Part shown: positions 139 to 42,338 of the stretch, piece after piece
Layout: each line of letters opens with the position of its first letter
Position numbering within the stretch: the stretch's first letter is position 1
Source of the DNA: an uncultured Bacteroidales bacterium
Lineage (GTDB): Bacteria > Bacteroidota > Bacteroidia > Bacteroidales > CAIWKO01
Assembly (NCBI GenBank): GCA_903913285.1
Contig: CAIWKO010000019.1
Coordinates: 1 to 42,541 of the forward strand
DNA: 42,541 nt
Reading direction: 5' to 3'
Position numbers and translations under genes: made by a program
Notes under the pieces: model-generated
The model's database searches: none
Told to the model about the DNA's origin: nothing
What the model saw: only the letters and a program-made list of their open reading frames with translations

Positions 139-861
139 CCTTGGAATATTGATTATATTCTTGCTACCGATAATGCCGTTTATGCATTCGGGCCATTGGC
201 ATCAGGTAAGGATGCTTATTATAACGAACTGGTAGGAAATGTAACTAAATACAAATCGGTTCAGCTGATGAAAATTGCTGATAAAAAAGTTGAATATCTC
301 ACCGAAACCACCCTCGACGAATTTGCAACCAAACTAAAAACGCCTCCTTCTCAAAGAAGGTCGCCCGACTACGATGGAAAAAAGTTTGAGATAATCAATT
401 ATAAGGTTTTTGATAATGCTGATTTTATGGTTGTAGGCCAAAACTTTAAACTCGATCAAAACAAAGTAAAACAGTATAACGATATTGTTGCTTTTCATTT
501 CGATAGCAAAGGTATCCTCAAAGCTCAATACGGTGTCGACACGAAAGAGAGTAACGAATATTCTAAAAAATACGGAACACCCCAAAGCATGTTAATTGGC
601 AAAAATCCGAATAATATGTATTGGATCGTTCAGGAAATTAAGGGGTATTCTGATTGGTTCGACAAAGAACTCACTTATCCGCGTATTGCTAAAGTTGACA
701 TGAGTGCTGCAACGCTGGGCGATTTTACAACATTGGGAGGCAAAGAGTTTTATCTCGATCCTAAGTTTCCTTATCTGGAATCAGAACCGGGCAAACTGGT
801 TTTCTTCGGGTCGAACAAACCCGGTAAAATTATTTGGTTCAATAAAATAGACCTTGAATAA
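139..861 (+). CDS. C-terminal part of an unrecognised protein, 5' end disrupted
   Basis: The open frame ends at 861 and runs back to an in-frame stop at 136-138. It has no ATG near its beginning; the first usable codon is a TTG at 196 (221 aa), which falls in mid-domain sequence (ATDNAVYAFGPLASGK) rather than at a natural N-terminus. Bases 3-138 in another frame read as plausible continuing protein (KYINSKALSYY, then EKKPGIGYSTMS), broken by stops at 90-92 and 129-131. The gene is therefore either a pseudogene with several lesions or intact DNA with sequence errors near a contig end. The readable part alternates short hydrophobic and polar stretches, rich in aromatic residues, as in beta-propeller or beta-sandwich proteins. 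I do not recognise the family. A good terminator follows at 881-912. Confidence 0.6.
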   Translation, partial: PWNIDYILATDNAVYAFGPLASGKDAYYNELVGNVTKYKSVQLMKIADKKVEYLTETTLDEFATKLKTPPSQRRSPDYDGKKFEIINYKVFDNADFMVVGQNFKLDQNKVKQYNDIVAFHFDSKGILKAQYGVDTKESNEYSKKYGTPQSMLIGKNPNNMYWIVQEIKGYSDWFDKELTYPRIAKVDMSAATLGDFTTLGGKEFYLDPKFPYLESEPGKLVFFGSNKPGKIIWFNKIDLE

Positions 862-880
862 TTTCTGTTGCTTAATTCAT

Positions 881-912
881 AACGGAAGCTTAACAGGCTT
901 CCGTTTTTTTTT
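881..912 (+). terminator. Rho-independent terminator
   Basis: A perfect 9-bp stem (AACGGAAGC at 881-889 pairing with GCTTCCGTT at 897-905) has a 7-base loop and is followed by a run of T to 912. It lies 20 bases after the stop codon of the first gene and is a textbook terminator for it. Confidence 0.9.
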
Positions 913-967
913 ACCAAATATTCAAACTACGAAAAACAATATGCTCATACTTTTCGAACCGATTTTG

Positions 968-975
968 TATATTTG
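968..975 (+). promoter_or_regulatory. -7 box (TATATTTG) of the AraC-type regulator gene
   Basis: TATATTTG matches the Bacteroidota -7 consensus TAnnTTTG exactly. Only six bases separate it from the ATG at 982, so transcription would start at or next to the start codon. No clear TTTG -33 box is visible at the expected distance upstream. Confidence 0.5.
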
Positions 976-981
976 TCAAAG

Positions 982-1803
982 ATGGAAAAGCAATTCCGCA
1001 TATTCGAAATAACCAAAGATCTGGTGGATGATATCCTCTCGAGATCGTACGAAGCCCATTTTCACGATTTTGAAGAGATCATTATATTAAGTGAAGGCGG
1101 CCTGGAACATTATGTCGATTTCAAGATAGAAAAAGTGGATGCGCCTGTGGCATGCTATGTTCCCATGAACAAAATGCACAAACTGATTCCCTGTGCCAAT
1201 ATGCGCGGATGGGTGGTTAATTATAAAACAGAATTTGTTCCCGAATCAAAACTGAATTTCATTTCCAATTTCAACACTTCAACCAACATTCCCCTGCTGA
1301 GCGACGAAAATCTTAAGCGTTTCACGGGTTTGTGCCGCATCATGCACAGCGAATACAAGCAGGAATATATCGACCTGAAAGCCATCAGCCATTTGCTCAA
1401 CGGGTTTATCACCATGATAGACACACAACGCAAGAGGATCATCCCGATAGAGAGTACCATAAAAGCATCGCAAATAAGCGCCTTCAATAACTTCCTGAAA
1501 ATATTGGAAGAAAACTTCCGTCGTGATGCGGGAGTTACCTTCTATGCCGAAAAGATGAACATGTCGGAACGCAACCTGAATATCATTTGCAGAAACAACT
1601 TCCAGAAAAGCGTATCGGAGATCATCGAAACACGCAAACTGATAGAAGCAAAACATCTATTGCTGCATACCGATAAGTCGGTTTCGGAGATCGGCTACGA
1701 ACTGGGCTACAACGAGAAATCGTACTTCACGCGAGTGTTTCATGCTAAAATGGACATCACTCCTACCCGCTTTCGCGAAATGACACGAAGCATCCTTTCC
1801 TAA
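982..1803 (+). CDS. AraC family transcriptional regulator
   Basis: This 273-residue protein begins at ATG 982; a TTG at 973 is in frame but lies inside the -7 box. The N-terminal half (about residues 20-100, with the histidine-rich HFHDFEE stretch) looks like an AraC cupin-type sensing domain. The last 100 residues form the double helix-turn-helix DNA-binding domain: SVSEIIETRKLIEAKHLL for the linker helix, then SVSEIGYELGYNEKSYFTRVF and the closing P-x-x-FR motif (TPTRFRE). It is expected to be a cytoplasmic regulator responding to a small ligand. Its most obvious possible target is the YceI gene 103 bp downstream on the same strand, which has its own promoter box; that link is inference from adjacency. 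The ligand is unknown. Confidence 0.93.
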   Translation: MEKQFRIFEITKDLVDDILSRSYEAHFHDFEEIIILSEGGLEHYVDFKIEKVDAPVACYVPMNKMHKLIPCANMRGWVVNYKTEFVPESKLNFISNFNTSTNIPLLSDENLKRFTGLCRIMHSEYKQEYIDLKAISHLLNGFITMIDTQRKRIIPIESTIKASQISAFNNFLKILEENFRRDAGVTFYAEKMNMSERNLNIICRNNFQKSVSEIIETRKLIEAKHLLLHTDKSVSEIGYELGYNEKSYFTRVFHAKMDITPTRFREMTRSILS

Positions 1804-1854
1804 ATTTACCACACCTTTTCCAATTAGTGTTACCTCCTGCCGTTCGGTTAGGCG

Positions 1855-1862
1855 TAATTTTG
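1855..1862 (+). promoter_or_regulatory. -7 box (TAATTTTG) of the YceI gene
   Basis: TAATTTTG fits TAnnTTTG and would give a 5' leader of about 40 bases before the ATG at 1907. The leader just before the start is A-rich (AAACACAAAAACTTACATAAA region), as usual for Bacteroidota translation starts. Confidence 0.55.
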
Positions 1863-1906
1863 TATCATTAAATCAAACGATAGTTAAACACAAAAACTTA
1901 CATAAA

Positions 1907-2443
1907 ATGGAAACAAAAACAAACTGGGTAATCGACCCAACTCACAGCAAAATAAGCTTCAAAGTAAAACACCTTATGATAACAAACGTGGAAGGCAACT
2001 TTAAAGAATTTGAAGCAACGGTATGTACTCTTGGAAACGATTTTTCAACCTCGCTCATCTCATTTTCGATGAATGCTGCATCTATTGACACCGAAGTAGC
2101 CGACCGGGATGCACATCTGAAGAGTGCCGATTTCTTTGATGTAGCAAACCATCCGAAGATCACCTTCGAAGGAACAGGTTTAAAAGATCTCGGCGACGAT
2201 ATGTATGAACTCACCGGCAACCTTACCATAAAAGAAATAACACATCCGGTTACGCTGGCAGTTGAACACGGCGGAATAATAACCGATTCATGGGGAAACA
2301 TAAAGACAGGCTTCTCAATCGCTGGTATGATTAACCGCAAAGACTGGGGATTAAACTGGAATGCAGCCCTCGAAGCCGGTGGAGTTCTTGTTGGCGAAGA
2401 TGTAAAGATACTTTGTGAAGTTGAATTTGTGAAACAAGCTTAA
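1907..2443 (+). CDS. YceI family polyisoprenoid-binding protein
   Basis: The 178-residue product is a full-length YceI domain: it opens with TNWVIDPTHSKISFKVKHL and contains the family's VEGNFKEF and DVANHPKITFEG segments, ending with GEDVKILCEVEFV. YceI proteins fold as an extended lipocalin-like barrel that binds long isoprenoid or amide lipids. No signal peptide is visible, so this copy is probably cytoplasmic, unlike periplasmic E. coli YceI. It lies directly downstream of an AraC-type regulator. A strong bidirectional hairpin follows the gene. The lipid ligand and the physiological role are not evident from sequence. Confidence 0.95.
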   Translation: METKTNWVIDPTHSKISFKVKHLMITNVEGNFKEFEATVCTLGNDFSTSLISFSMNAASIDTEVADRDAHLKSADFFDVANHPKITFEGTGLKDLGDDMYELTGNLTIKEITHPVTLAVEHGGIITDSWGNIKTGFSIAGMINRKDWGLNWNAALEAGGVLVGEDVKILCEVEFVKQA

Positions 2444-2456
2444 AACTACTATACCC

Positions 2457-2499
2457 ATAAAAGCCATCTGCTTGATAACGATCAACGGATGGCTTTTAT
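2457..2499. terminator. Bidirectional terminator between convergent genes
   Basis: A perfect 12-bp inverted repeat (ATAAAAGCCATC at 2457-2468, GATGGCTTTTAT at 2488-2499) has A-rich and T-rich outer arms, so it can terminate the YceI transcript on the plus strand and the HD-domain gene on the minus strand, whose stop lies at 2513. Confidence 0.9.
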
Positions 2500-2512
2500 A
2501 TTATGCCGAATG

Positions 2513-3079
2513 TTAATACTGCAGTTTTTTCTGAAGTACTTCTTCTGCTAGGTTCAACATCTGTTGAAATGTTTGTATCGGCAGCTTTTCGCTTTCGTAA
2601 AATAATCGTTCGGCGTCGGCTATCATACCGAAAGTTGGTTCAAATCTGAGAAATTTGCGGTTCAGGTTATGTTCCCCGATACGGATACGGTCGAGAGCGT
2701 CGGCATCTTTCAATAAAGCTGTAACTGTATAATGCGGATGCCACTTTTTGATCTCAACATATTGCGAATGATTGGCAACAGCAGTTTTCAGGGTGCTTAT
2801 CTGCTCTTCATCCAATCTATATTTCTGAAACAAAGGTGTGAACTCCGGAACTTTTAGTTTCGCAGCCCTCGGGCCGTGCATCAGGCAAAAGCCATCGTGT
2901 TTGCGGGCCATATCGTGAATAAATGCCGCAAAAAAAGCTACCCGTTTTTCTTCCTGTAAGCCTACATCATTTCCCAATGCAAGCGTGTGGCACATAACCC
3001 GGTATGTATGCATCGCGCCATGCAAATTGCTGGCATGCATGAAATATCCGGGTTTAATATCAAAATCTGAGAGATCCAT
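2513..3079 (-). CDS. HD domain-containing protein
   Basis: This is a likely metal-dependent phosphohydrolase of the HD superfamily. Counting from the ATG at 3079 (188 aa), the metal ligands appear in the right order: His24 in GAMHTYRV, His55-Asp56 in FAAFIHDMA, and Asp125/Asp127 in LLKDADALDRIR. An in-frame TTG at 3130 would add 17 residues; I prefer the ATG because the extension (AFDIIKKCNFNVELT) does not look conserved and starts with two leucine codons. The protein is soluble, with no signal peptide. It stands alone on the minus strand, divergent from the FKBP gene. The substrate (nucleotide, ppGpp or other) cannot be read from sequence. Confidence 0.85.
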   Translation of the reverse strand: MDLSDFDIKPGYFMHASNLHGAMHTYRVMCHTLALGNDVGLQEEKRVAFFAAFIHDMARKHDGFCLMHGPRAAKLKVPEFTPLFQKYRLDEEQISTLKTAVANHSQYVEIKKWHPHYTVTALLKDADALDRIRIGEHNLNRKFLRFEPTFGMIADAERLFYESEKLPIQTFQQMLNLAEEVLQKKLQY

Positions 3080-3207
3080 TGTCAATTCAACATTAAAATT
3101 ACACTTTTTGATAATATCAAAAGCCAACAATTCAATAATCTGTTCAAAAACTACAATATTATCATAAAATGCAAGCGACTACTAGGCAGCCGTAATGGTT
3201 TTCTTAC

Positions 3208-3215
3208 TATATTTG
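3208..3215 (+). promoter_or_regulatory. -7 box (TATATTTG) of the FKBP gene
   Basis: TATATTTG is an exact TAnnTTTG match, 37 bases before the preferred ATG at 3253. No convincing -33 TTTG is seen. Confidence 0.5.
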
Positions 3216-3252
3216 CTGACTCAAATTTTATTTACCTAAATCAATGTATTTC

Positions 3253-3954
3253 ATGAAAAAAATTATTCTGCTTGCAGCAATTGTATCGTTTGGTTTCATG
3301 GCCAATGCGCAAAAAACCAATTTTAAACTTACCACCAGAAATGACTCTGTAGCTTATACTATTGGTATAAACATCGGTAAAAATTTAAAGACGAATATGG
3401 ATAAAGACTCGTTGAAACTCAATTTAGCATTATTGACACAGGGATTTAATGATGCACTCAACGGTTTGGACACAGCAAAACTTACCGGAAAAATGCAACA
3501 AAAGGTGATGACAAATTTCCAGGTTGAGATGCAGCAAAAACAAATGAAAAAAGACAGTAAAATAGCAGGACCAAACAAAGAAGCCGGCAAAAAATTTCTG
3601 GAAGAAAATAAAAGCAAACCCGGAGTGATACAAACTGCCAGTGGGTTGCAATATAAAGTTATTAAAGAAGGTACCGGTAAAACTCCGACAACTCAGGATA
3701 AAGTAACCGTTAATTATGAAGGAAAATTACTCGACGGAAAAGTTTTCGATTCTTCCTATGACCGCAATAAACCCGAAACATTTCCTGTTACTGGTGTTAT
3801 TAAAGGCTGGACAGAAGCTCTTCAACTGATGAAAGAAGGCGGAACGTACGAATTATATATTTCGTCCGATCTTGGATATGGCGATCAGGGAAACCAGGGA
3901 ATACCCGGCGGATCATGTCTTATATTCAAAGTTGATCTGATCGAAGTTAATTAA
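3253..3954 (+). CDS. FKBP-type peptidyl-prolyl cis-trans isomerase, exported
   Basis: The gene encodes a 233-residue protein from ATG 3253; an ATG at 3244 adds only MYF before the same signal peptide. Residues 1-20 (MKKIILLAAIVSFGFMANAQ) are a signal peptide. The N-terminal region (about 25-115, with VAYTIGINIGKNLK) is the FKBP-N dimerisation-type segment. The C-terminal 110 residues are the catalytic FKBP domain with SGLQYKVIKEGTGKTP, VNYEGKLLDGKVFDSS, GVIKGWTEAL and the LGYGDQG loop. It resembles FkpA/Mip periplasmic folding catalysts that isomerise X-Pro bonds in exported proteins. It lies just upstream of a secreted prolyl-specific peptidase in the same orientation, but the 95-bp gap leaves co-transcription unproven. 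Confidence 0.96.
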   Translation: MKKIILLAAIVSFGFMANAQKTNFKLTTRNDSVAYTIGINIGKNLKTNMDKDSLKLNLALLTQGFNDALNGLDTAKLTGKMQQKVMTNFQVEMQQKQMKKDSKIAGPNKEAGKKFLEENKSKPGVIQTASGLQYKVIKEGTGKTPTTQDKVTVNYEGKLLDGKVFDSSYDRNKPETFPVTGVIKGWTEALQLMKEGGTYELYISSDLGYGDQGNQGIPGGSCLIFKVDLIEVN

Positions 3955-4049
3955 ACCAGATTCTATTAATCTCAGAACGAGCATTTTTGATTAATACAAT
4001 TGCTTAAAAATTGAGTAGTTATAAAATTGCAATAAAACAAATTAATCTT

Positions 4050-6242
4050 ATGAGAACAAGGTTTTCCGCAATATTTATTGCTTTATTGCTGCTGACAATT
4101 TCGCTGCCGGCACAAACCCACAAACAAGTTACTCTCGAAGATCTGTGGATTAATTATGCCTTCTATCCCGAACGTTCTGACGAAATAGTTCCGATGAACG
4201 ATGGCGAACATTATCTTGTGCTGACCAACAGTAATACGATCGACAAATTCTTTTACAAGAATGATAAATCACAAGGCTCATTGATTACAAAAGATATGCT
4301 GGTTCCAACAGGAAAAACAGAATCGATCAAGATCGAATCGTTTGAAATGAGCAGCGACGAAACAAAAGTTCTGATAAAGACCGAATCGGAGCAAATATAC
4401 CGTCATTCCGAAATAGCCAACTATTATGTTCTTGACCTGACGGCAAAAAAACTCACTCCCGTTTCGGAAACATCTAAGCAACGCCTTGCCGATTTCTCTC
4501 CCGATGGCAATAAAATTGCATACATAAGAGAAAATAACCTTTTTGTAAAAGACCTGAAAACAAATGCAGAAACACAGATTACCAACGACGGACTGATAAA
4601 CAACATTATCAACGGAACCACCGATTGGGTTTATGAAGAGGAGTTCAGTTTTACAAAAGCATTCTTCTGGTCGCCCGATAGCAAAAAGATCGCATACATG
4701 CGTTTCGACGAAAGTAAAGTGAAGGAATATCAGTTAACCAATTATGGAGAACTCTATCCCGAACAGTATAAATACAAATATCCTGTTGCAGGCGAAGACA
4801 ACTCCATCGTTAGCGTTCTGGTTTATGATATGTCGGATGCTGCAAAAAGTGTCACACATAAAATGGATATCGGAACGGTTACCGATCAATATATTCCGCG
4901 CATTTGCTGGACTAAAGACCCAAATAATCTTGCCATTTTCCGCATGAACCGCCTGCAGAACAAACTAGAGATATTGTTTGCTAATGCCGCAAATGGTAAT
5001 ACTTCCGTGTTCTACACTCAGGAAAACAAAAAGTATATTGAGATCACCGATGACTATAAATTCACCGAAGATGGAAAATATTTCGTCATTATGAGCGAGC
5101 AGAATGGCTACAGCCACATTTATTTATACGAAATGACCGGCAAACTGGTAAAACAGGTAACAAGCGGAAACTGGGATGTAACTGCCATAAAAGGTGTGGA
5201 TGAAAAGAATAAGGTGATCTATTATGTCTCGGCCGAAAGCAATCCCTATAACCGCGATTTATACAGCATCAAGTTCGATGGTACGGGAAAAACCTGCATC
5301 TTTAACAAGCCAGGAAGCTATGATGCGGCTTTCAGCAAAAACTTCAATTATTTTGTTTCAACTTTTTCTGATGCAAACACTCCGCCGAAAGTAGCTATCA
5401 ACAGCAATACAGGTAAAGAACTGCGTGTACTTACCGACAATCAGAAACTTCTTGATAAAACCAAAGAATATGGGTTCAGCAAAAAGGAATTCTTTAATTT
5501 CAAAACTTCCGAAAATGTTTCGCTGAACGGTTATATCATTAAGCCCGCCGATTTTGACGCAACAAAAAAATATCCTGTGCTGATGAATGTTTATGGCGGA
5601 CCGAATTCACAATATGCAACCAACGACTGGGATACCTTTGATATGGTTTGGTATCAGTATTTGGCACAACATGGCTACAGCATCGTTTGTGTGGATGGCA
5701 GAGGAACCGGTGAACGCGGTGAAGAATTCAGAAAGTGTACTTATATGGAACTGGGCAAACTTGAAACAGAAGACCAGATAGAAACAGCAAAATATTTAGG
5801 AACCCAGTCGTATGTTGATTCAAAGCGTATCGGCATCTGGGGATGGAGCTATGGCGGTTTCGAAGCAGCCCTTTGCATGACCAAAGGAGCTGACGTTTTT
5901 AAAGCGGGTATTGCCGTGGCACCTGTAACCAACTGGCGTAATTACGACAATATCTACACCGAACGGTATATGCGCACACCTCAGGAAAACGCTGCAGGCT
6001 ACGACGATAATTCGCCTGTAAAATTCGTAAAAAAGCTGAAAGGCAAGTTTCTTATCTGCCATGGCATGGCTGACGATAATGTGCATTTTCAGAATACGGT
6101 TGAAATGGTGGATGCTTTGGTCAATGCAAATAAGCAATTCGAAATGCAGTTCTATCCAAATAAAAACCACGGCATCTATGGCGGTTATACACGTTATCAT
6201 CTGTACAAAAAGATGTCGGATTTTATAATCGAGAATTTATAA
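4050..6242 (+). CDS. Dipeptidyl peptidase IV, S9B family, exported
   Basis: This 730-residue enzyme removes X-Pro (or X-Ala) dipeptides from peptide N-termini. A signal peptide covers residues 1-23 from ATG 4050 (RFSAIFIALLLLTISLPAQ); an upstream in-frame TTG at 4011 would spoil it. The N-terminal beta-propeller carries the double-glutamate motif DWVYEEEF (Glu196-Glu197), which anchors the substrate N-terminus and is diagnostic for DPP-IV rather than other S9 enzymes. The C-terminal alpha/beta-hydrolase domain has Ser600 in GWSYGG, Asp675 in HGMADDNVHF and His707 in NHGIYGG, a complete catalytic triad. It is probably periplasmic and used in peptide scavenging. Confidence 0.97.
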   Translation: MRTRFSAIFIALLLLTISLPAQTHKQVTLEDLWINYAFYPERSDEIVPMNDGEHYLVLTNSNTIDKFFYKNDKSQGSLITKDMLVPTGKTESIKIESFEMSSDETKVLIKTESEQIYRHSEIANYYVLDLTAKKLTPVSETSKQRLADFSPDGNKIAYIRENNLFVKDLKTNAETQITNDGLINNIINGTTDWVYEEEFSFTKAFFWSPDSKKIAYMRFDESKVKEYQLTNYGELYPEQYKYKYPVAGEDNSIVSVLVYDMSDAAKSVTHKMDIGTVTDQYIPRICWTKDPNNLAIFRMNRLQNKLEILFANAANGNTSVFYTQENKKYIEITDDYKFTEDGKYFVIMSEQNGYSHIYLYEMTGKLVKQVTSGNWDVTAIKGVDEKNKVIYYVSAESNPYNRDLYSIKFDGTGKTCIFNKPGSYDAAFSKNFNYFVSTFSDANTPPKVAINSNTGKELRVLTDNQKLLDKTKEYGFSKKEFFNFKTSENVSLNGYIIKPADFDATKKYPVLMNVYGGPNSQYATNDWDTFDMVWYQYLAQHGYSIVCVDGRGTGERGEEFRKCTYMELGKLETEDQIETAKYLGTQSYVDSKRIGIWGWSYGGFEAALCMTKGADVFKAGIAVAPVTNWRNYDNIYTERYMRTPQENAAGYDDNSPVKFVKKLKGKFLICHGMADDNVHFQNTVEMVDALVNANKQFEMQFYPNKNHGIYGGYTRYHLYKKMSDFIIENL

Positions 6243-6380
6243 GTTCGGATTAGAGTTAATGTTTTCAAAACTGATTTTATCAATCTTTATGCACAGGTTA
6301 AAATAATTTCTCTATTTTTACGCATAGTAAAAACTGATACCATTATTTTAATTAACCTAAAGAATCAGTAATCAGGCAAA

Positions 6381-8144
6381 TTGAGACGCTTTTTAGAATA
6401 CATATTTTCGTGGCGCGAAAAATTCGTCGGTAATAGAGCTTTTTTAATCATTGCCAGTATTATTGTTGGAATCGTATCGGCATTGGTGGCGGTTCTTTTA
6501 AAAACTACGGTTCATTTATTGCATCAGGTTCCTGAATATTATCACGAATATTTCTACAAGAATTTATGGTTATTTGTGTTCCCTATTATTGGAATTATAC
6601 TAACTATTCTGGTTGTAAAATTTGCATTAAAAGGCAAAATAGACAAAGGTCTTGGAAACGTTTTATACGCCATAACCCGCAAATCGTCAAAGATCGACAA
6701 GGTAAATACCTATTCGCAGATCATCACCAGCAGTATTACTGTTGGTTTGGGCGGTTCTGCAGGACTTGAAGCGCCAATTGCCATCACGGGTTCTGCTATC
6801 GGTTCGAACATCGGGAGTTTTTTCAAACTGGGGCGTAAAGAACGCACGCTGCTTTTGGCATGCGGCGCCGCTTCGGGTATAGCGGCCGTGTTCAATAGCC
6901 CAATCACAGGTGTTATTTTTGCTATCGAGGTCTTATTGGTCGATTTCTCAATACCATCATTCATACCATTATTAATTTCGACCGCATCAGCTACCATTGT
7001 CTCGAAGCTACTCTATAAAGGCCAGCTTTTTTATCTGGTTTCTCACGATTGGTTCTACAATGCAATCCCTTTTTATATCGTGTTGGGAATACTCTGCGGA
7101 TTCTTGTCGGTTTACATGAAGCGGGTCACATTATGGTCAGAAGGTTATTTCAACACTAAGAAAAAAGTAGTGTTGAAAACTACACTCGGACTGGCGATAC
7201 TGGGTCTGCTGATCTTTTTGCTGCCTCCGTTGTTTGGTGAAGGATATTCATCCATAGAGAGCTTATTGAACGGACATTTTTCAAATATTCTGGATTATTC
7301 GGTGTTCGATTCGTTTAAAGATAATGCATGGTTTATTCTGATCTTTACGGCTGCCATCATCCTCCTGAAAATAATTGCCACTGCATTAACTGTCGGGACG
7401 GGAGGCAACGGAGGTATATTTGCGCCCTCACTGTTCACAGGTGCTTTCACAGGATTCGGGCTGGCACATCTGGTAAACACAAGTGAAATAAGCAAACTAA
7501 ACACACCCAATTTCATCGTTGCCGGTATGGCAGGCATCTTGAGCGGCGTGGTTCATGCCCCACTTACAGCTATATTTTTAATTGCGGAGATCACGGGAGG
7601 ATATACCCTTTTCGTTCCACTAATGATCGTTTCGGCGCTTTCGTATTTCATCACCCGTATCTTTGAACCGCATTCCGTTTATACTAAAAAACTTGCCGAA
7701 TCGGGTAACCTGCTGACCGACGATAAAGACAGCAATGTTCTGAAGTATCTAAAAATGGAAGACCTGATCGAGAAAGATTTTGCCGTACTGAACATCAACG
7801 ATACCTTGCAAAGTTTAATAGAAGCTTTTACGAACAGCAAACGCAGCATTTTTCCGGTGGTGAATGATGAGCATGAATTGGAGGGTGTTATTTTCCTCGA
7901 CAAAGTAAAAGATCTGATGTTTAAGACCGAACTTTACGAAAGCATGAAAATTAAAGACATCACCGAGAAATCAATTTCAATCTCTATTACCGATTCCATG
8001 GAAAGTTCGATGGATAAGTTCGAAAAGTCGAACCTATGGAATATACCTGTTTTGGATGATGGAAAGTATGTAGGCTTTATTTCCAGGTCGAATATACTGA
8101 ACTATTACCGCAAGATATTAAAGAAAAACGTTTCGTTGTTCTGA
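6381..8144 (+). CDS. CLC-family chloride channel or transporter with CBS domains
   Basis: The 587-residue membrane protein has about 450 residues of CLC transmembrane core followed by a cytoplasmic pair of CBS domains (about 455-580). Key CLC sites are visible: the gating glutamate Glu130 in GSAGLEAPI, the third filter motif GGNGGIFAPSLF, and the central-ion tyrosine in HSVYTKKL. The first filter motif is degenerate (KGLGNVL instead of GSGIP). At the position of the internal proton glutamate (E. coli ClC-ec1 E203) the sequence is FAIEV, so Val184 replaces it, which argues against classic Cl-/H+ exchange. The start is TTG 6381: an in-frame stop lies at 6369-6371 and no ATG is near. The CBS pair suggests nucleotide regulation. 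Confidence 0.93.
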   Translation: MRRFLEYIFSWREKFVGNRAFLIIASIIVGIVSALVAVLLKTTVHLLHQVPEYYHEYFYKNLWLFVFPIIGIILTILVVKFALKGKIDKGLGNVLYAITRKSSKIDKVNTYSQIITSSITVGLGGSAGLEAPIAITGSAIGSNIGSFFKLGRKERTLLLACGAASGIAAVFNSPITGVIFAIEVLLVDFSIPSFIPLLISTASATIVSKLLYKGQLFYLVSHDWFYNAIPFYIVLGILCGFLSVYMKRVTLWSEGYFNTKKKVVLKTTLGLAILGLLIFLLPPLFGEGYSSIESLLNGHFSNILDYSVFDSFKDNAWFILIFTAAIILLKIIATALTVGTGGNGGIFAPSLFTGAFTGFGLAHLVNTSEISKLNTPNFIVAGMAGILSGVVHAPLTAIFLIAEITGGYTLFVPLMIVSALSYFITRIFEPHSVYTKKLAESGNLLTDDKDSNVLKYLKMEDLIEKDFAVLNINDTLQSLIEAFTNSKRSIFPVVNDEHELEGVIFLDKVKDLMFKTELYESMKIKDITEKSISISITDSMESSMDKFEKSNLWNIPVLDDGKYVGFISRSNILNYYRKILKKNVSLF

Positions 8145-8909
8145 TCAACTTCTCAGATACGAAGCCCCGTTGATATCAAGAATACAGCCCGTCATAAATT
8201 CTGTTCTGTCAGATGCCAGCAAAACAATAGCATGTGCCACTTCCTCAGGTTTGGCAACCCTGTTCAGCGGACTTTGGCCTTTTATTTTTGCTCCCTCCTG
8301 CCCTTTCAATGCTTTGGTCGACATTTCGGTTTCCACAAATCCCGGAGCCACCACATAAACAAACACATTTTTTGGTGCCAGCAGTTGAGCCAGCGACTGG
8401 CTGAACTGATTCAGTGCAGCCTTACTTGCTCCGTAAGCCGGTGCATAAGGTTCGCCGCGAAAAGCACCCCTCGACGACACATTGATTATCTTGCCTCCTC
8501 CCCCTGAAGCCATTTGTCTGCCGACAAAATACGTGAGGTTCGCCATTCCGGCAAAATTGGTATTCATTGTTTCATTAATGTGAAGTTGCCATTCATTATA
8601 GCTGCACGAAAGCATATTGCATTCCTTGAATATTCCCGCGTTATTCACCAAAACATCGATATGTCCGGCTTTACGGAGGGCTTTGAAGACTGCACGCTCT
8701 ACTATGAATGAATCGCATAGATCGGCTTTCAGCAGAAAATGTTTCTCGCCCGGCAACATCGACAAAGTTTTCAGTGCAGCAGTTTCATTTTCTTTATAAT
8801 GAATAATGACATGCGCTCCGCATGTTGCAAACTCGACAGCTGTTGCCCTGCCGATTCCGCGAGAAGCTCCGGTTACCAATACATACTTGCCGCTAAAATC
8901 AATGTTCAT
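8145..8909 (-). CDS. SDR family NAD(P)-dependent oxidoreductase
   Basis: A 254-residue classical short-chain dehydrogenase. The nucleotide-binding TGASRGIG motif is at residues 13-20, NNAG at 89-92, the catalytic Asn at about 118, Ser146 in INVSS, Tyr159 and Lys163 in YGASK. It resembles 3-oxoacyl-ACP reductases (FabG-like), but many SDRs do, so the substrate is open. It begins 12 bp after homoserine kinase and is the last gene of the dapA-like/thrB/SDR operon. Its TGA and the TGA of the convergent CLC gene abut within the palindrome TGATCA, so no terminator fits between the two genes. Confidence 0.92.
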   Translation of the reverse strand: MNIDFSGKYVLVTGASRGIGRATAVEFATCGAHVIIHYKENETAALKTLSMLPGEKHFLLKADLCDSFIVERAVFKALRKAGHIDVLVNNAGIFKECNMLSCSYNEWQLHINETMNTNFAGMANLTYFVGRQMASGGGGKIINVSSRGAFRGEPYAPAYGASKAALNQFSQSLAQLLAPKNVFVYVVAPGFVETEMSTKALKGQEGAKIKGQSPLNRVAKPEEVAHAIVLLASDRTEFMTGCILDINGASYLRS

Positions 8910-8921
8910 GGATAATTTTAA

Positions 8922-9836
8922 TTACATTTCGCAAACACCTGTGTTGCTGGTGGTAGTTTTTATGATCTTCACAAAATTAGGGTTCCCTTTCAATCCACTT
9001 TCCATAATAGCTGCTATTTCGTCCTGCAAATGGGCCGGACAGATGGTGATGACCGAAGAACCGCCACCGCTAACCGTACTCCCGAATGCTCCCGCAGCCA
9101 GAACCTTCGCTTTGGTTTCGTTATAATTTGCTATAACAGCCGAACGAACCGGTTCCGCAATATGATCGACACTAATGGCCTTGCCGAATTCTTCGGCATC
9201 GCGTGTGTGAATGGCATGTATCACCCGCGAACAACGCGCCATTTGATCTTTAAGTTTGTCGGGGCCAATTTCGTAAGTGATGAATCCGCGTGTGGTACGC
9301 TGGGTCTTCTTGATCACAGCCAAAACCACGGGAAATTCGGGCATCTGGAGTTTCAACACATCAATGGGATGATAGTCTTTTATAAGGATGAATCCGCCAA
9401 GCATTGCTGCTGCCACATTATCGGCATGAGGCGAACCTCCGGAAGCTATTTCGCCCATACGCGCCAGGTCGACCAGTTCGTTGTCAGATAAATTAAGTTG
9501 CAGCATTTTGTTCAGGCCATAAATAGCTGAAGAGGCCGATGTTCCTGTGGTCCCCAATCCACAACCCGAGGTCATATGTTTGGTGATGGTTACTTTCACT
9601 CCCAGATCGGGCTTGTAACGCTTTTTGAGCTCCAGTATCGCCAAACCGGCAGTATTGTCTTCTATTGTTATGGGTATGTTCTGGCTGTCGCCCTCGAAGT
9701 TTATAGTAATGGCGTTATCGTTGGTAAGCTCCAGTAACATTTCATCATAAGGTTCTTTGAGCGCCATGGCAAAAATATCGTATCCCGGTCCCACGTTGGC
9801 ACTGGTGGCAGGGCCGCGTAATCTTATACTGTTCAT
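8922..9836 (-). CDS. thrB: Homoserine kinase
   Basis: This 304-residue GHMP-family kinase phosphorylates L-homoserine to O-phospho-homoserine in threonine synthesis. Diagnostic parts are the N-terminal LRGPATSANVGPGYD, the GHMP phosphate loop SGCGLGTTGTSASSA and the homoserine-kinase motif GGSPHADNVAAAMLGGF. Length is normal. Its ATG overlaps the TGA of the upstream aldolase gene by four bases (ATGA), which suggests translational coupling. No thrA or thrC is present in this window, so the usual Bacteroidota thrA-thrB-thrC arrangement is not seen here. Confidence 0.92.
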   Translation of the reverse strand: MNSIRLRGPATSANVGPGYDIFAMALKEPYDEMLLELTNDNAITINFEGDSQNIPITIEDNTAGLAILELKKRYKPDLGVKVTITKHMTSGCGLGTTGTSASSAIYGLNKMLQLNLSDNELVDLARMGEIASGGSPHADNVAAAMLGGFILIKDYHPIDVLKLQMPEFPVVLAVIKKTQRTTRGFITYEIGPDKLKDQMARCSRVIHAIHTRDAEEFGKAISVDHIAEPVRSAVIANYNETKAKVLAAGAFGSTVSGGGSSVITICPAHLQDEIAAIMESGLKGNPNFVKIIKTTTSNTGVCEM

Positions 9837-10711
9837 AATAAACCTTTTTGTTGCATGAAGAATCTGAGTTTTTTGGTCTTTTCTTCGCTGAGCGGAGTGA
9901 GAGGCGAACGATGGCCGCCGGCAGGCAAACCCATCAGGTTGAGCGCCATTTTGGCTGCCATGGGATTTGATTCGTAGCGGAAGGCTTCGAAGAGTTCGTA
10001 ATAGTTGTAGTGAATTTCTGCTGCTTCTTTCATCTTGCCGTTCAGGGCCAGATCGGTCATGTTGCGCATCACTTCGGGGATGACGTTTCCGGCAACGGTG
10101 AAAGTTCCTGCACCGCCAAAGGATATGAGCGGATAGGCCGTGGTATCTTTTCCGGTGAATACATAAAAATCGTCATCGCGGGTAAGATGCAATATCTTTG
10201 CCAGATGGTCTAACTTCTTATTGCCGTCTTTAATGCCAACTATGTTGGGATGTTTGGCAAGTACGCCTGTGGTTTCGGGAAGTAAATCCACACCTGTACG
10301 TTCGGGAGCGTTGTGCAATATGATAGGAACCTTTGCAAAATCGGCTAACTTAGTATAGAAATCGATCAAACCTTCCTGCTTTGGCAACACGAAATAAGGT
10401 GTGAACACCGAAATGTAATCGGCACCCAGATCGATAAAGCGGCTGACGCGCTCTTTGGCTTCCCATAAACTGGTGCTGCAGGCATCGGGAGCCAATTTGG
10501 TTTTGCCTTTGGCCACTTCAGCAATGATCTCTACCACACGATATACTTCTTTGTCGGTCATCATCGTGTTTTCGCCCGTTACGCCCAAGGGAGCTATTCC
10601 CTGTATACCGGCATCGACCTGACGCTGCACAAGCAAACGCAAGCCATCTTCATCCAGTGTAAGATCTTCTTTGAAAGGAGTTATCAGTAATGTATACGCG
10701 CCTTTTACCAT
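9833..10711 (-). CDS. DapA/N-acetylneuraminate lyase family aldolase with altered active site
   Basis: The 292-residue protein aligns end to end with dihydrodipicolinate synthase and happens to share E. coli DapA numbering. The Schiff-base lysine Lys161 (VGIKDGN) and the carboxylate-binding Arg138 (NAPERTG) are present. All three proton-relay residues differ: Thr44 is Val (GVTGEN), Tyr107 is Phe (TPYFVLP) and Tyr133 is His (ILHNAPERTG). I therefore call it a class I pyruvate-dependent aldolase or lyase of this superfamily and not a proven DapA. It is the first gene of the operon with thrB and an SDR, so amino-acid metabolism is a reasonable guess, but the substrate is unknown. Confidence 0.88.
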   Translation of the reverse strand: MVKGAYTLLITPFKEDLTLDEDGLRLLVQRQVDAGIQGIAPLGVTGENTMMTDKEVYRVVEIIAEVAKGKTKLAPDACSTSLWEAKERVSRFIDLGADYISVFTPYFVLPKQEGLIDFYTKLADFAKVPIILHNAPERTGVDLLPETTGVLAKHPNIVGIKDGNKKLDHLAKILHLTRDDDFYVFTGKDTTAYPLISFGGAGTFTVAGNVIPEVMRNMTDLALNGKMKEAAEIHYNYYELFEAFRYESNPMAAKMALNLMGLPAGGHRSPLTPLSEEKTKKLRFFMQQKGLL

Positions 10712-10812
10712 GGTTTTATCGTTTTTAGTTTATACAAAGTAAAGCAAAATGATATAATCCACAGAAGGAAAGAAGGAATTTTATTAAACGGGTTTTGAAC
10801 AAGGAAAAGTTT

Positions 10813-10850
10813 GAAGTGCCTAAAGTGATCTAAAGTGCCTAAAGTTAGGT
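10813..10850. repeat. Short imperfect repeats between divergent genes
   Basis: The 288-bp stretch between the aldolase gene and the phosphatase gene has no plausible reading frame. It holds short direct repeats: AAGTGCCTAAAG occurs twice, with related AAAGTGATCT and AAAGTTAGGT between and after them, followed by pyrimidine-rich TTCTGTATTCTG repeats up to 10977. Confidence 0.5.
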
Positions 10851-10986
10851 AAAAAGAATAAGTTAGGCAGGCATTAGGCAACCGGCATTGGCCTTAATGG
10901 ATAGTTTATCCATTTATCCAACTTCCGGCTTCGGACTTCCATCTTCTCGTATTCTGTCTTCTGTATTCTGTATTCTAAAAATAAAC

Positions 10987-10994
10987 TATTTTTG
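10987..10994 (+). promoter_or_regulatory. -7 box (TATTTTTG) of the YjjG-type phosphatase gene
   Basis: TATTTTTG fits TAnnTTTG. Only five bases separate it from the ATG at 11000, so the mRNA would begin at the start codon. Confidence 0.5.
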
Positions 10995-10999
10995 CACGC

Positions 11000-11698
11000 A
11001 TGACTACAAAATACTCCCACATTTTCTTCGATCTGGATAAAACCATCTGGGATTTTGAAACCAATTCGGAACAAACAATCCGTGAGATATACGATATGCT
11101 GAAGTTCGATAAACAGAACATCAGCAGCTTTGATGCGTTTCACAAGATATACGACGGCCATAACCTGAGATACTGGGAATTGTATCGCCAAAACAAGGTG
11201 GAAAAAGCCGACCTGATGGTGATGCGCTTTCAGGATGCACTGCTCGAATTTGGAATAGACGATACGGAAATCGCTCAGCAATTTTCGACAAAATATCTGG
11301 AATTGCTTCCCGAAAAGACCGCCGTTTTTGAGGGCACGCACGAAACACTCGAATACCTTTCGGCAAAATACAAACTGCATATCATCACCAACGGCTTTGA
11401 GGAAGTGCAGTTTCGCAAGATACACAACACGGGCATGGATAAGTTCTTTACACGCATTATCACCTCGGAAGAAGCAGGTTGCAAAAAACCCGATCAACGC
11501 ATTTTTGAATACTCTTTAAAACTTATACAAGCTTCGGCACACGAATGCCTGATGGTGGGCGACGATATGGAAGTGGACCTGCTGGGAGCCAGACATGCAG
11601 ACATCGATCAGGTGTTCTTCAATACTAAAAACATCAAACATAATCATAAATTTACATACGAGATCAAGGATATGAGGGAGCTTTGCGGGTTGTTATGA
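11000..11698 (+). CDS. YjjG family noncanonical pyrimidine nucleotidase (HAD)
   Basis: The 232-residue protein is a haloacid-dehalogenase phosphatase. Motif I is FFDLDKTIWDFE with nucleophile Asp11 and acid Asp13; the WDFE continuation is typical of YjjG, which dephosphorylates noncanonical or surplus pyrimidine nucleoside monophosphates. Motif II is HIITNGF, the motif III lysine lies in GCKKPDQRIFE, and motif IV is MVGDDMEVDLLGA. The cap is helical (C1 type). It is a soluble, probably cytoplasmic house-cleaning enzyme. The gene is monocistronic, with a promoter box almost touching its start codon. Confidence 0.9.
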   Translation: MTTKYSHIFFDLDKTIWDFETNSEQTIREIYDMLKFDKQNISSFDAFHKIYDGHNLRYWELYRQNKVEKADLMVMRFQDALLEFGIDDTEIAQQFSTKYLELLPEKTAVFEGTHETLEYLSAKYKLHIITNGFEEVQFRKIHNTGMDKFFTRIITSEEAGCKKPDQRIFEYSLKLIQASAHECLMVGDDMEVDLLGARHADIDQVFFNTKNIKHNHKFTYEIKDMRELCGLL

Positions 11699-11715
11699 AA
11701 GAGCCCGTTTAGCAT

Positions 11716-11880
11716 CTATATATTCGTCAGAAACAAGTATAGCCCTATCCAGAGCGCGATAAAAACAAAACCCACTATCACTTCGTTCTTGTGGTTGCTG
11801 AGGTCTTTTTTTAATAGCCAGCGATAGAACACCCAAATAACAAATACCGGGATAAAGAAAAAAGGCATAAATGCTTTCAT
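11716..11880 (-). CDS. Small hypothetical membrane protein, 54 aa
   Basis: An ATG at 11880 opens a 54-codon frame ending in TAG at 11716-11718. The product starts MKAFMPFFFIPVFVIWVFYR and has two clear hydrophobic segments (about 5-22 and 34-51), separated by a charged loop, KKDLSNHKNE. This hairpin architecture, with positive charge at the loop, is unlikely by chance in a random short frame. It follows the 336-aa gene by 59 bp on the same strand and may be co-transcribed. I do not recognise a family. Confidence 0.6.
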   Translation of the reverse strand: MKAFMPFFFIPVFVIWVFYRWLLKKDLSNHKNEVIVGFVFIALWIGLYLFLTNI

Positions 11881-41857: not shown

Positions 41858-41955
41858 TCCATTCATCTTTCCCGGACAAATATTAAGTTGCCGGCACGAT
41901 GTATCACCTGCGCAAAATATTGGAAGATTTCGGTTTCTCGAGCATGGAAGTGAGG

Positions 41956-42249
41956 AAAATCGTGCGTGCGCATACCGAAATGGAGCGTGCACATAAAGAA
42001 ATTGAGCGTGCGCATACCGAAATTGAGCGTGCGCATAGCGAAATTGAGCGTGCGCATACCGAAACCGTGCGTGTGCATACCGAAATCGTGCGTGTGCATA
42101 CCGAAATCGTGCGTGCGCATACCGAAAATGAGCGTGCGTATACCGAAACTGTGCGTGTGCATACCGAAATCGTGCGTGCGCATACCGAAACTGTGCGTGC
42201 GCATACCGAAATCGTGCGTGCGCATAGCGAAATTGAGCGTGTGCATATA
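41956..42249. repeat. Tandem array D: fourteen 21-bp units
   Basis: Fourteen consecutive units of exactly 21 bp share CGTGYGCATACCGAAA; a variable part (TTGAG, TCGTG, CCGTG, CTGTG or ATGAG) completes each unit. An ATG-started frame from 41899 to 42312 reads through as 137 residues of EIERAHT heptads with coiled-coil-like spacing, and an opposite-strand frame is open too. Most differences between units change the amino acid (ATT to ACC, GAG to GTG, GCG to GTG) while silent changes are few, so selection for a protein is not apparent. I annotate it as non-coding repeat with a possible small coding interpretation. Confidence 0.9.
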
Positions 42250-42282
42250 GAAATGGAAAAGTGTCATTTTTATTATTCTTTT

Positions 42283-42338
42283 AGCTACGCTGAGATTTCT
42301 TCGTTCATTTAGCTTCGCTGAGCTCACTTCGTTCATTT
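42283..42338. repeat. Two 28-bp tandem copies
   Basis: Two adjacent 28-bp copies begin AGCTWCGCTGAG and end CTTCGTTCATTT; they differ at a few internal positions. They lie directly after array D. Confidence 0.7.

Follow-up and report, generated by a model that had tools for sequence, protein, structure and literature searches.

The window, i.e. the whole 42,541-nucleotide stretch of DNA from an uncultured Bacteroidales bacterium that was analysed, carries a DapA-like gene whose product (hereafter DapA') belongs, as judged from its sequence, to a real, conserved and separate subfamily whose active site has been remodelled; DapA' likely catalyses a reaction different from that of DapA. The reading we favour, possible though clearly short of probable, is that DapA' is a DapA-derived Schiff-base enzyme that, together with the homoserine kinase-like protein encoded next to it (HK'), took over DAP synthesis. 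An earlier note on the same DNA had proposed a different pyruvate-type aldolase or lyase reaction; the distinct subfamily and the changed active site agree with the first part of that proposal, whereas the aldolase or lyase type was not borne out. The features of the operon are collected in Table 1.

Table 1. Positions of the DapA' operon and of codons for active-site residues of DapA' in the window
Feature	Position	Strand	Remark
DapA' (DapA-like, relay-less subfamily), 292 aa	9833..10711	-	Intact ORF; profile, alignment, tree and model
HK', homoserine kinase-like GHMP kinase	8922..9836	-	Start overlaps DapA' stop by 4 bp
Short-chain dehydrogenase/reductase (SDR)	8145..8909	-	12 bp after HK'
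Val44 codon (Thr44 in E. coli DapA)	10580..10582	-	
Phe107 codon (Tyr107 in E. coli DapA)	10391..10393	-	
His133 codon (Tyr133 in E. coli DapA)	10313..10315	-	
Arg138 codon, retained	10298..10300	-	Second-substrate carboxyl contact in DapA
Lys161 codon, retained (Schiff base)	10229..10231	-	
Lys188 codon (Asp187 in E. coli DapA)	10148..10150	-	New positive charge
Arg245 codon (Phe244 in E. coli DapA)	9977..9979	-	New positive charge

DapA' is a full-length PF00701 protein and the sole PF00701 match in the window genome (97% complete). It scored 237.4 bits against the TIGR00674 dapA equivalog profile (cut-off, 206.15) and stayed below the cut-offs of the NAL-type profiles. In the window, DapA' is accompanied only by HK' and the SDR, and the stop-start overlap of 4 bp between the DapA' and HK' genes was seen in 11 of the 24 loci in which it was measured, the window's included. 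No riboswitch was detected at gathering scores in 22 loci or in positions 7900-11800 of the window. Scanning with a Bacteroidota promoter pattern gave no site upstream of the DapA' operon and a chance-level number of sites in the window. At the far end of the window (41863-42336), open repeat ORFs occur on both strands and contain a short repeated motif (MRTHDFG / ERAHTEI).

Residues are numbered here as in E. coli DapA. The earlier note had taken this numbering to coincide with that of DapA', which holds to about residue 170; beyond it DapA' is offset by +1 (E. coli residues 187, 203, 244 and 248 are 188, 204, 245 and 249 in the window protein). When window DapA' was aligned to E. coli DapA, Val44, Phe107 and His133 were found in place of Thr44, Tyr107 and Tyr133, and Thr45, Arg138 and Lys161 were retained. 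The loss of the three residues with Lys161 and Arg138 kept, as the earlier note had described it for the one protein, turned out to be a fixed feature of the clade of 29 DapA' members defined below: Val44 and His133 occur in all 29, position 107 is Phe in 25 and Leu in four, and none of the members retains any residue of the Thr44-Tyr133-Tyr107 triad. In contrast, 85 canonical DapA rows (eight NAL-like rows and a Chlamydiales row on a long branch, L099, were excluded from this set) all have Tyr107 and Tyr133, and 84 of them have Thr44 and one Ser44. These three residues are described as the proton relay of E. coli DapA (PMC3188589, PMC4977564), in line with the roles assigned to them in the earlier note, and the substitutions Y107F and Y133F are reported to lower the kcat of E. 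coli DHDPS 12-fold and 177-fold, respectively (PMC3188589).

The changes extend beyond the relay. Fixed in 29/29 DapA' members and absent or nearly absent in the 85 canonical DapAs are T44V, Y133H, His169 and S185T, together with A8L, G76D, A163G, G165K, D187K, I203F and F244R, the last seven being additions to what the earlier note had described; Leu8, Lys187, Phe203 and Arg244 do not occur in a single one of the 85 canonical DapAs. Asn80, a lysine-site residue, is lost in at least 28 of the 29 members. Conversely, Thr45, Arg138, Lys161, Gly186 and Asn248 are unchanged in 29/29, as is Gly43 of the GxxGE motif, Glu47 of which is replaced by Asp in three rows (L068, L073 and L074). In DapA, Arg138 is reported to contact the carboxyl group of the second substrate or its analogue (PMC3188589, PMC11201819), and Asn248 likewise contacts the carboxyl of a second-substrate analogue (PMC11201819). 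Because both residues are kept, an amino-acid-like partner is presumably still bound by DapA'. The pattern suggests that DapA' has given up the part of the active site serving the aldehyde oxygen and has retained both the half-site for pyruvate and the contacts to the carboxylate; it has also gained positive charges at 187 and 244, which, from their position, probably face the substrate. A degenerate DapA or a pseudogene was ruled out, the changes being fixed in 29/29 members and the remainder conserved. Nor do we regard it as anything other than highly improbable that DapA' is a non-catalytic relative, i.e. a pyruvate-binding pseudoenzyme that acts as a regulator of the kinase or as a metabolite sensor: the loss of the relay and of Asn80 and the pairing with HK' would fit such a role, whereas the five invariant residues from Thr45 to Asn248 and the frequent lack of intact DapA and DapB in genomes bearing DapA' speak against it.

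The 29 members were collected by searching genome contigs. In the resulting 80 loci (the best 80 of 498 relatives), 27 encode proteins 57-91% identical to window DapA', and identity next drops to 40%. Adding the window protein and another copy, from genome G002, brings the clade to 29 members in 28 genomes, not counting six loci in which the same genes recur. All 27 loci come from MAG or bin records, labelled as Bacteroidota (18), Cloacimonadota (three), Armatimonadota, TA06 and WOR-3 (one each) or unlabelled (three). A quick tree of the superfamily, the check that the earlier note had named, placed DapA' in a clade of its own, a single branch (SH-aLRT support, 100) on the DapA side and apart from the Bacteroidales DapAs; the eight NAL-like rows fell outside the branch formed by DapA and DapA'. 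A Chlamydiales DapA-like protein (L099, 5929-6840, + strand), with Gly163, Phe203 and Pro106, of which the first two are common to DapA', branches beside DapA' on a long branch, and its placement is unsure. The AlphaFold2 model of DapA' has a pLDDT of 95.1, and all of the 50 PDB matches listed for it are DHDPS or MosA, with TM scores of 0.93-0.97 over the query. In literature searches of limited depth, we found no paper describing such a subfamily or reaction. The second DapA' copy (L034, G002, 448-7235; L071) does not lie beside HK'; its neighbours are genes for a NifX-like protein (by eye), an ARMT1-like phosphatase, CGGC and a MinD/ferredoxin ATPase.

Genomes that bear DapA' mostly do without the canonical first enzymes of the pathway. 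Intact canonical DapA (in the relatives, one with Tyr107, Tyr133, Arg138 and Lys161) was found in 6 of the 28 bearers as opposed to 31 of 33 same-order relatives without DapA', the two remaining relatives having NAL-like matches only (G009) or none (G012). DapB_C exceeded its cut-off in five of the six bearers with intact DapA and in one of the other 22, namely G048, which has DapB beside a DapF-like ORF and DapA' as its sole DapA type. Fisher p values were 4e-9 (DapA) and 4e-4 (DapB); neither they nor the counts are corrected for relatedness, and for DapA the bearers span several phyla but the relatives a single order. Five further bearers have a canonical-type DapA with broken residues: Gly43 is changed in G041; Gly43, Thr44 and Asp187 in G046; Ala8 and Arg138 in G051; Thr44, Tyr133 and Asp187 in G056; and Lys161 and others in G063. 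In G051 (L169), moreover, about 610 bp (85%) of dapB is deleted and a short remnant is left, unlike its close relative G052 (L164), in which both dapB and canonical DapA are intact. The four genomes of the window's genus (G000-G003) have no DapB over cut-off. A divergent DapB was considered and rejected, since PF05173 at E values up to 1 gave no match in G001-G003 and a single one in G000, to a frame of 34 aa with an E value of 0.113. Beside lepB (named by eye), dapB is absent in G000 and G001 and present in G004, G005, G006, G040 and G045. Absences of this kind may be gaps because the loci come from MAG or bin records, with completeness given for 4 of the 28 bearers (81-97% in the four genomes of the window's genus).

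The possibility that another DapA had been overlooked in the window genome was rejected because PF00701 gives a single match there: the search for a canonical DapA returned DapA' and nothing else. The earlier note had held that the lack of any other DapA in a lysine-prototrophic genome would tell against its reading. No other DapA was found, yet DapB, DapL and LysA are also under cut-off, so lysine prototrophy of the window genome is unsupported, and this argument does not count against the note's reading. One could ask whether DapA' is simply an atypical DapA that makes HTPA from pyruvate and aspartate semialdehyde, His133 and Lys187 replacing the relay and another reductase, such as the SDR, replacing DapB. 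The DapA fold, the TIGR00674 score, the retained Arg138, Asn248, Thr45 and Lys161, the lack of another PF00701 protein in the genome and the DapB of G048 beside its DapF-like ORF would all agree with this. We nevertheless judge it decidedly unlikely: DapB is over cut-off in just one of the 22 bearers that lack an intact canonical DapA, no more than eight genomes have the SDR after HK', six bearers keep an intact DapA besides DapA', Y133F alone costs E. coli DapA the 177-fold noted above (PMC3188589), and the association with HK' where ThrC gave no match is left unexplained.

The link to a homoserine kinase gene, which the earlier note had described as translational coupling in the window, extends across the clade: HK' is the next same-strand gene downstream of DapA', within 700 bp, in 26 of the 28 genomes. 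It is present in 27 of them, being on another contig in G040 and missing in G059; ORF clustering saw HK' in 24 of 29 loci and missed at least one, in L084. HK' is the only strong ThrB-like match in each of the 27 genomes, the window's included. The window HK' scored 250.8 bits against NF002288 (cut-off, 194) and, with 166.3 bits, just under the TIGR00191 cut-off of 168.25, which is exceeded in 22 of 28 genomes. Of 27 genomes tested for ThrC, 14 gave a match above or near the cut-off or a fragmentary one, and the 13 genomes without a ThrC match, among them the four of the window's genus, all have HK'; the idea that HK' merely serves threonine synthesis was set aside on this ground. Pairwise distances of DapA' and HK' correlate (r = 0.70, 276 pairs), as do those of DapA' with aldehyde:ferredoxin oxidoreductase (r = 0.69, 36 pairs) and homoserine dehydrogenase (r = 0.63, 21 pairs). 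Because these other neighbours give similar values, the correlation singles out no link with HK'. The earlier note had also thought of a new branch from homoserine or aspartate metabolism; the pattern of gene loss agrees no less well with the DAP branch having been taken over.

Other neighbours vary from locus to locus. Aldehyde:ferredoxin oxidoreductase is encoded upstream of DapA' in 9 of 29 loci and homoserine dehydrogenase in the cluster in 7 of 29 (NF004912 was over cut-off for the one tested, L074), and an SDR orthologue follows HK' in eight genomes, including the window's. Near a few copies lie genes for a MocR-like aminotransferase, Met-gamma-lyase-like enzymes, aldehyde dehydrogenases and a sodium-dependent symporter, and near some, by eye, Lrp-type regulators and 2-oxoacid:ferredoxin oxidoreductase. 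One Cloacimonadota and one Bacteroidales contig (L070 and L078) have the same gene order: aminotransferase, homoserine dehydrogenase, oxidoreductase, DapA', HK'. A protein of 310-413 aa without a Pfam or NCBIfam match (L229, 12451-13692, - strand; L227, 4623-5555) clusters with aminotransferase, homoserine dehydrogenase, aldehyde:ferredoxin oxidoreductase, DapA' and HK' in two phyla.

Such neighbours invite the main rival explanation, that DapA' is a catabolic lyase in an amino-acid fermentation module, which would cleave a 4-hydroxy-2-oxo acid to yield pyruvate together with an amino-acid semialdehyde or a related aldehyde, the aldehyde then being oxidised by aldehyde:ferredoxin oxidoreductase or reduced by homoserine dehydrogenase and the DAP/lysine branch having been lost independently. 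We hold this to be rather unlikely. The two oxidoreductases, the catabolic-looking genes of the few loci that have them and the shared cluster order count in its favour, as does the finding that in the window's genus DapL, LysA and ThrC fall below cut-off, which would suit a scavenger of amino acids. On the other hand, window DapA' has only HK' and the SDR for company; the kinase spends ATP in a step for which a catabolic route has no obvious use; DapF is retained in three of the four genus genomes and DapD in G043; and the loss of the relay would be odd for a retro-aldolase, mutation of Tyr168 (the equivalent of Tyr133) being reported to abolish the activity of human HOGA (PMC3188589).

The later genes of the DAP/lysine pathway bear on the same question. 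All four genomes of the window's genus encode a full MurE with a DNPR motif, which we take to indicate the DAP type, and three of the four a DapF with both active cysteines, so DAP still seems to be needed in this genus. Neither DapL nor LysA exceeds its cut-off in any of the four, nor in G004 and G006, two of three tested relatives with canonical DapA and DapB; in G004, neither DapF nor a full MurE was found despite canonical DapA and DapB. Since they are also seen in such relatives, single absences are weak evidence either way. We note that the window's genus as a whole thus combines a DAP-type MurE, and DapF in three of four genomes, with no ThrC, DapB, DapL or LysA over cut-off. In G043, which has DapA' only, without DapB or a canonical DapA match, a 269-aa DapD ORF adjoins the DapA' cluster (NF008808, 249.5 bits for the 181-aa part scored; cut-off, 204). 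DapD uses tetrahydrodipicolinate. At this locus (L226/L238, G043:C27), DapD and an aminotransferase adjoin a cluster of DapA', HK' and oxidoreductase. On the strength of a few genomes, these findings favour the view that tetrahydrodipicolinate or DAP is still being made in the absence of DapA and DapB.

How might DapA' and HK' have taken over DAP synthesis? Lys161 would bind pyruvate as an enamine, and the partner, held by Arg138 and Asn248, would be an amino acid of the homoserine/aspartate type with no aldehyde oxygen to protonate, so that the relay would not be needed. In the specific reaction that we rank first, O-phospho-L-homoserine and pyruvate would then give phosphate and L-2-amino-6-oxopimelate, the open form that closes to tetrahydrodipicolinate; Lys187 and Arg244 would be expected to bind the phosphate. 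Homoserine dehydrogenase, encoded in the cluster in 7 of 29 loci, would supply the reduction (two electrons) normally added by DapB, HK' the activation and DapA' the C-C bond, and DapA and DapB would be replaced together. The carbon count and redox balance of this reaction fit. If it took place, it would account for the loss of the relay, the new positive charges, the pairing with a kinase, the presence of that kinase without ThrC and the joint loss of DapA and DapB. The active site of DapA is reported to hold alpha-ketopimelate (PMC4977564), which we count for the takeover because alpha-ketopimelate is a deamino analogue of the proposed product. That pyruvate and O-phosphohomoserine are converted to tetrahydrodipicolinate by DapA' in exactly this manner is, in our estimate, unlikely; DapA' would then be a new Schiff-base-lysine C-C enzyme, using O-phospho-L-homoserine to alkylate the enamine of pyruvate in one step, and with homoserine dehydrogenase and HK' would form a new entry to DAP in several uncultured lineages.

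Several points weigh against the takeover. Six of the 28 bearers keep an intact DapA, and G048 has DapB with only DapA'; extra copies of DapA' lie beside Fe-S/NifX-like genes rather than HK'; DapL and LysA are below cut-off in the window's genus; and the neighbours near some copies look catabolic. Alkylation of an enamine by an alkyl phosphate is not known to us from any enzyme of the superfamily, which counts against the proposed reaction. An aldolase of a 'homoserine cycle' acting on formaldehyde and pyruvate was set aside, as Arg138 and Asn248 are not needed there.

DapA' passes the curated DapA profile, so annotation pipelines will name it DapA and report the first step of lysine/DAP synthesis, and they do so where the known lysine/DAP route looks broken. 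If DapA and DapB have indeed been replaced by DapA' and HK', a textbook essential pathway has a new homoserine-derived entry and the gap in DAP synthesis of these uncultured bacteria is partly filled. If DapA' is instead a catabolic lyase, it is a superfamily member that works without the catalytic tyrosine.

Compared with known systems, DapA' is closest to DapA/DHDPS (TIGR00674), with which it shares homology over the whole length, Lys161, Thr45, Arg138, Asn248 and the GxxGE motif; its model superimposes on the DHDPS structure 2yxg with a TM score of 0.95 at 36-37% identity. It differs from DapA in lacking Thr44, Tyr107 and Tyr133, in the fixed A8L, D187K, I203F, F244R and other changes, in forming a separate clade, in running with HK' and in the lack of DapB from most of its genomes. 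HOGA and the other NAL superfamily aldolases share the TIM barrel, the Schiff-base lysine and the pyruvate half-site with DapA'. HOGA, however, is reported to keep Tyr168 and to have Asn173 at the place of Arg138 (PMC3188589), and all 29 DapA' members combine His133 with Arg138, as opposed to a catalytic Tyr133 with a residue other than Arg at 138. The DHDPS of Ca. Liberibacter solanacearum is likewise a departure from DapA, a different product, of altered stereochemistry, being reported, yet it is described as keeping the catalytic residues and changing Val135 and Asn248 (PMC11201819), whereas DapA' keeps Asn248 and loses the relay. HK' aligns with homoserine kinases (the M. jannaschii 1fwk family) at the HADNVA, EPVR and N-terminal AN.G.G.D motifs and is altered at the phosphate loop and other motifs, GLGSSA having become GLGTTG, ISGSGPS SGGGSS and AREILP TRGFI.Y. 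In Fub7 and CndF, which depend on PLP, activated homoserine is coupled to a carbonyl carbanion to yield a six-membered cyclic imine; the chemistry there is a PLP gamma-substitution, whereas that proposed for DapA' would proceed through the enamine of a Schiff-base lysine.
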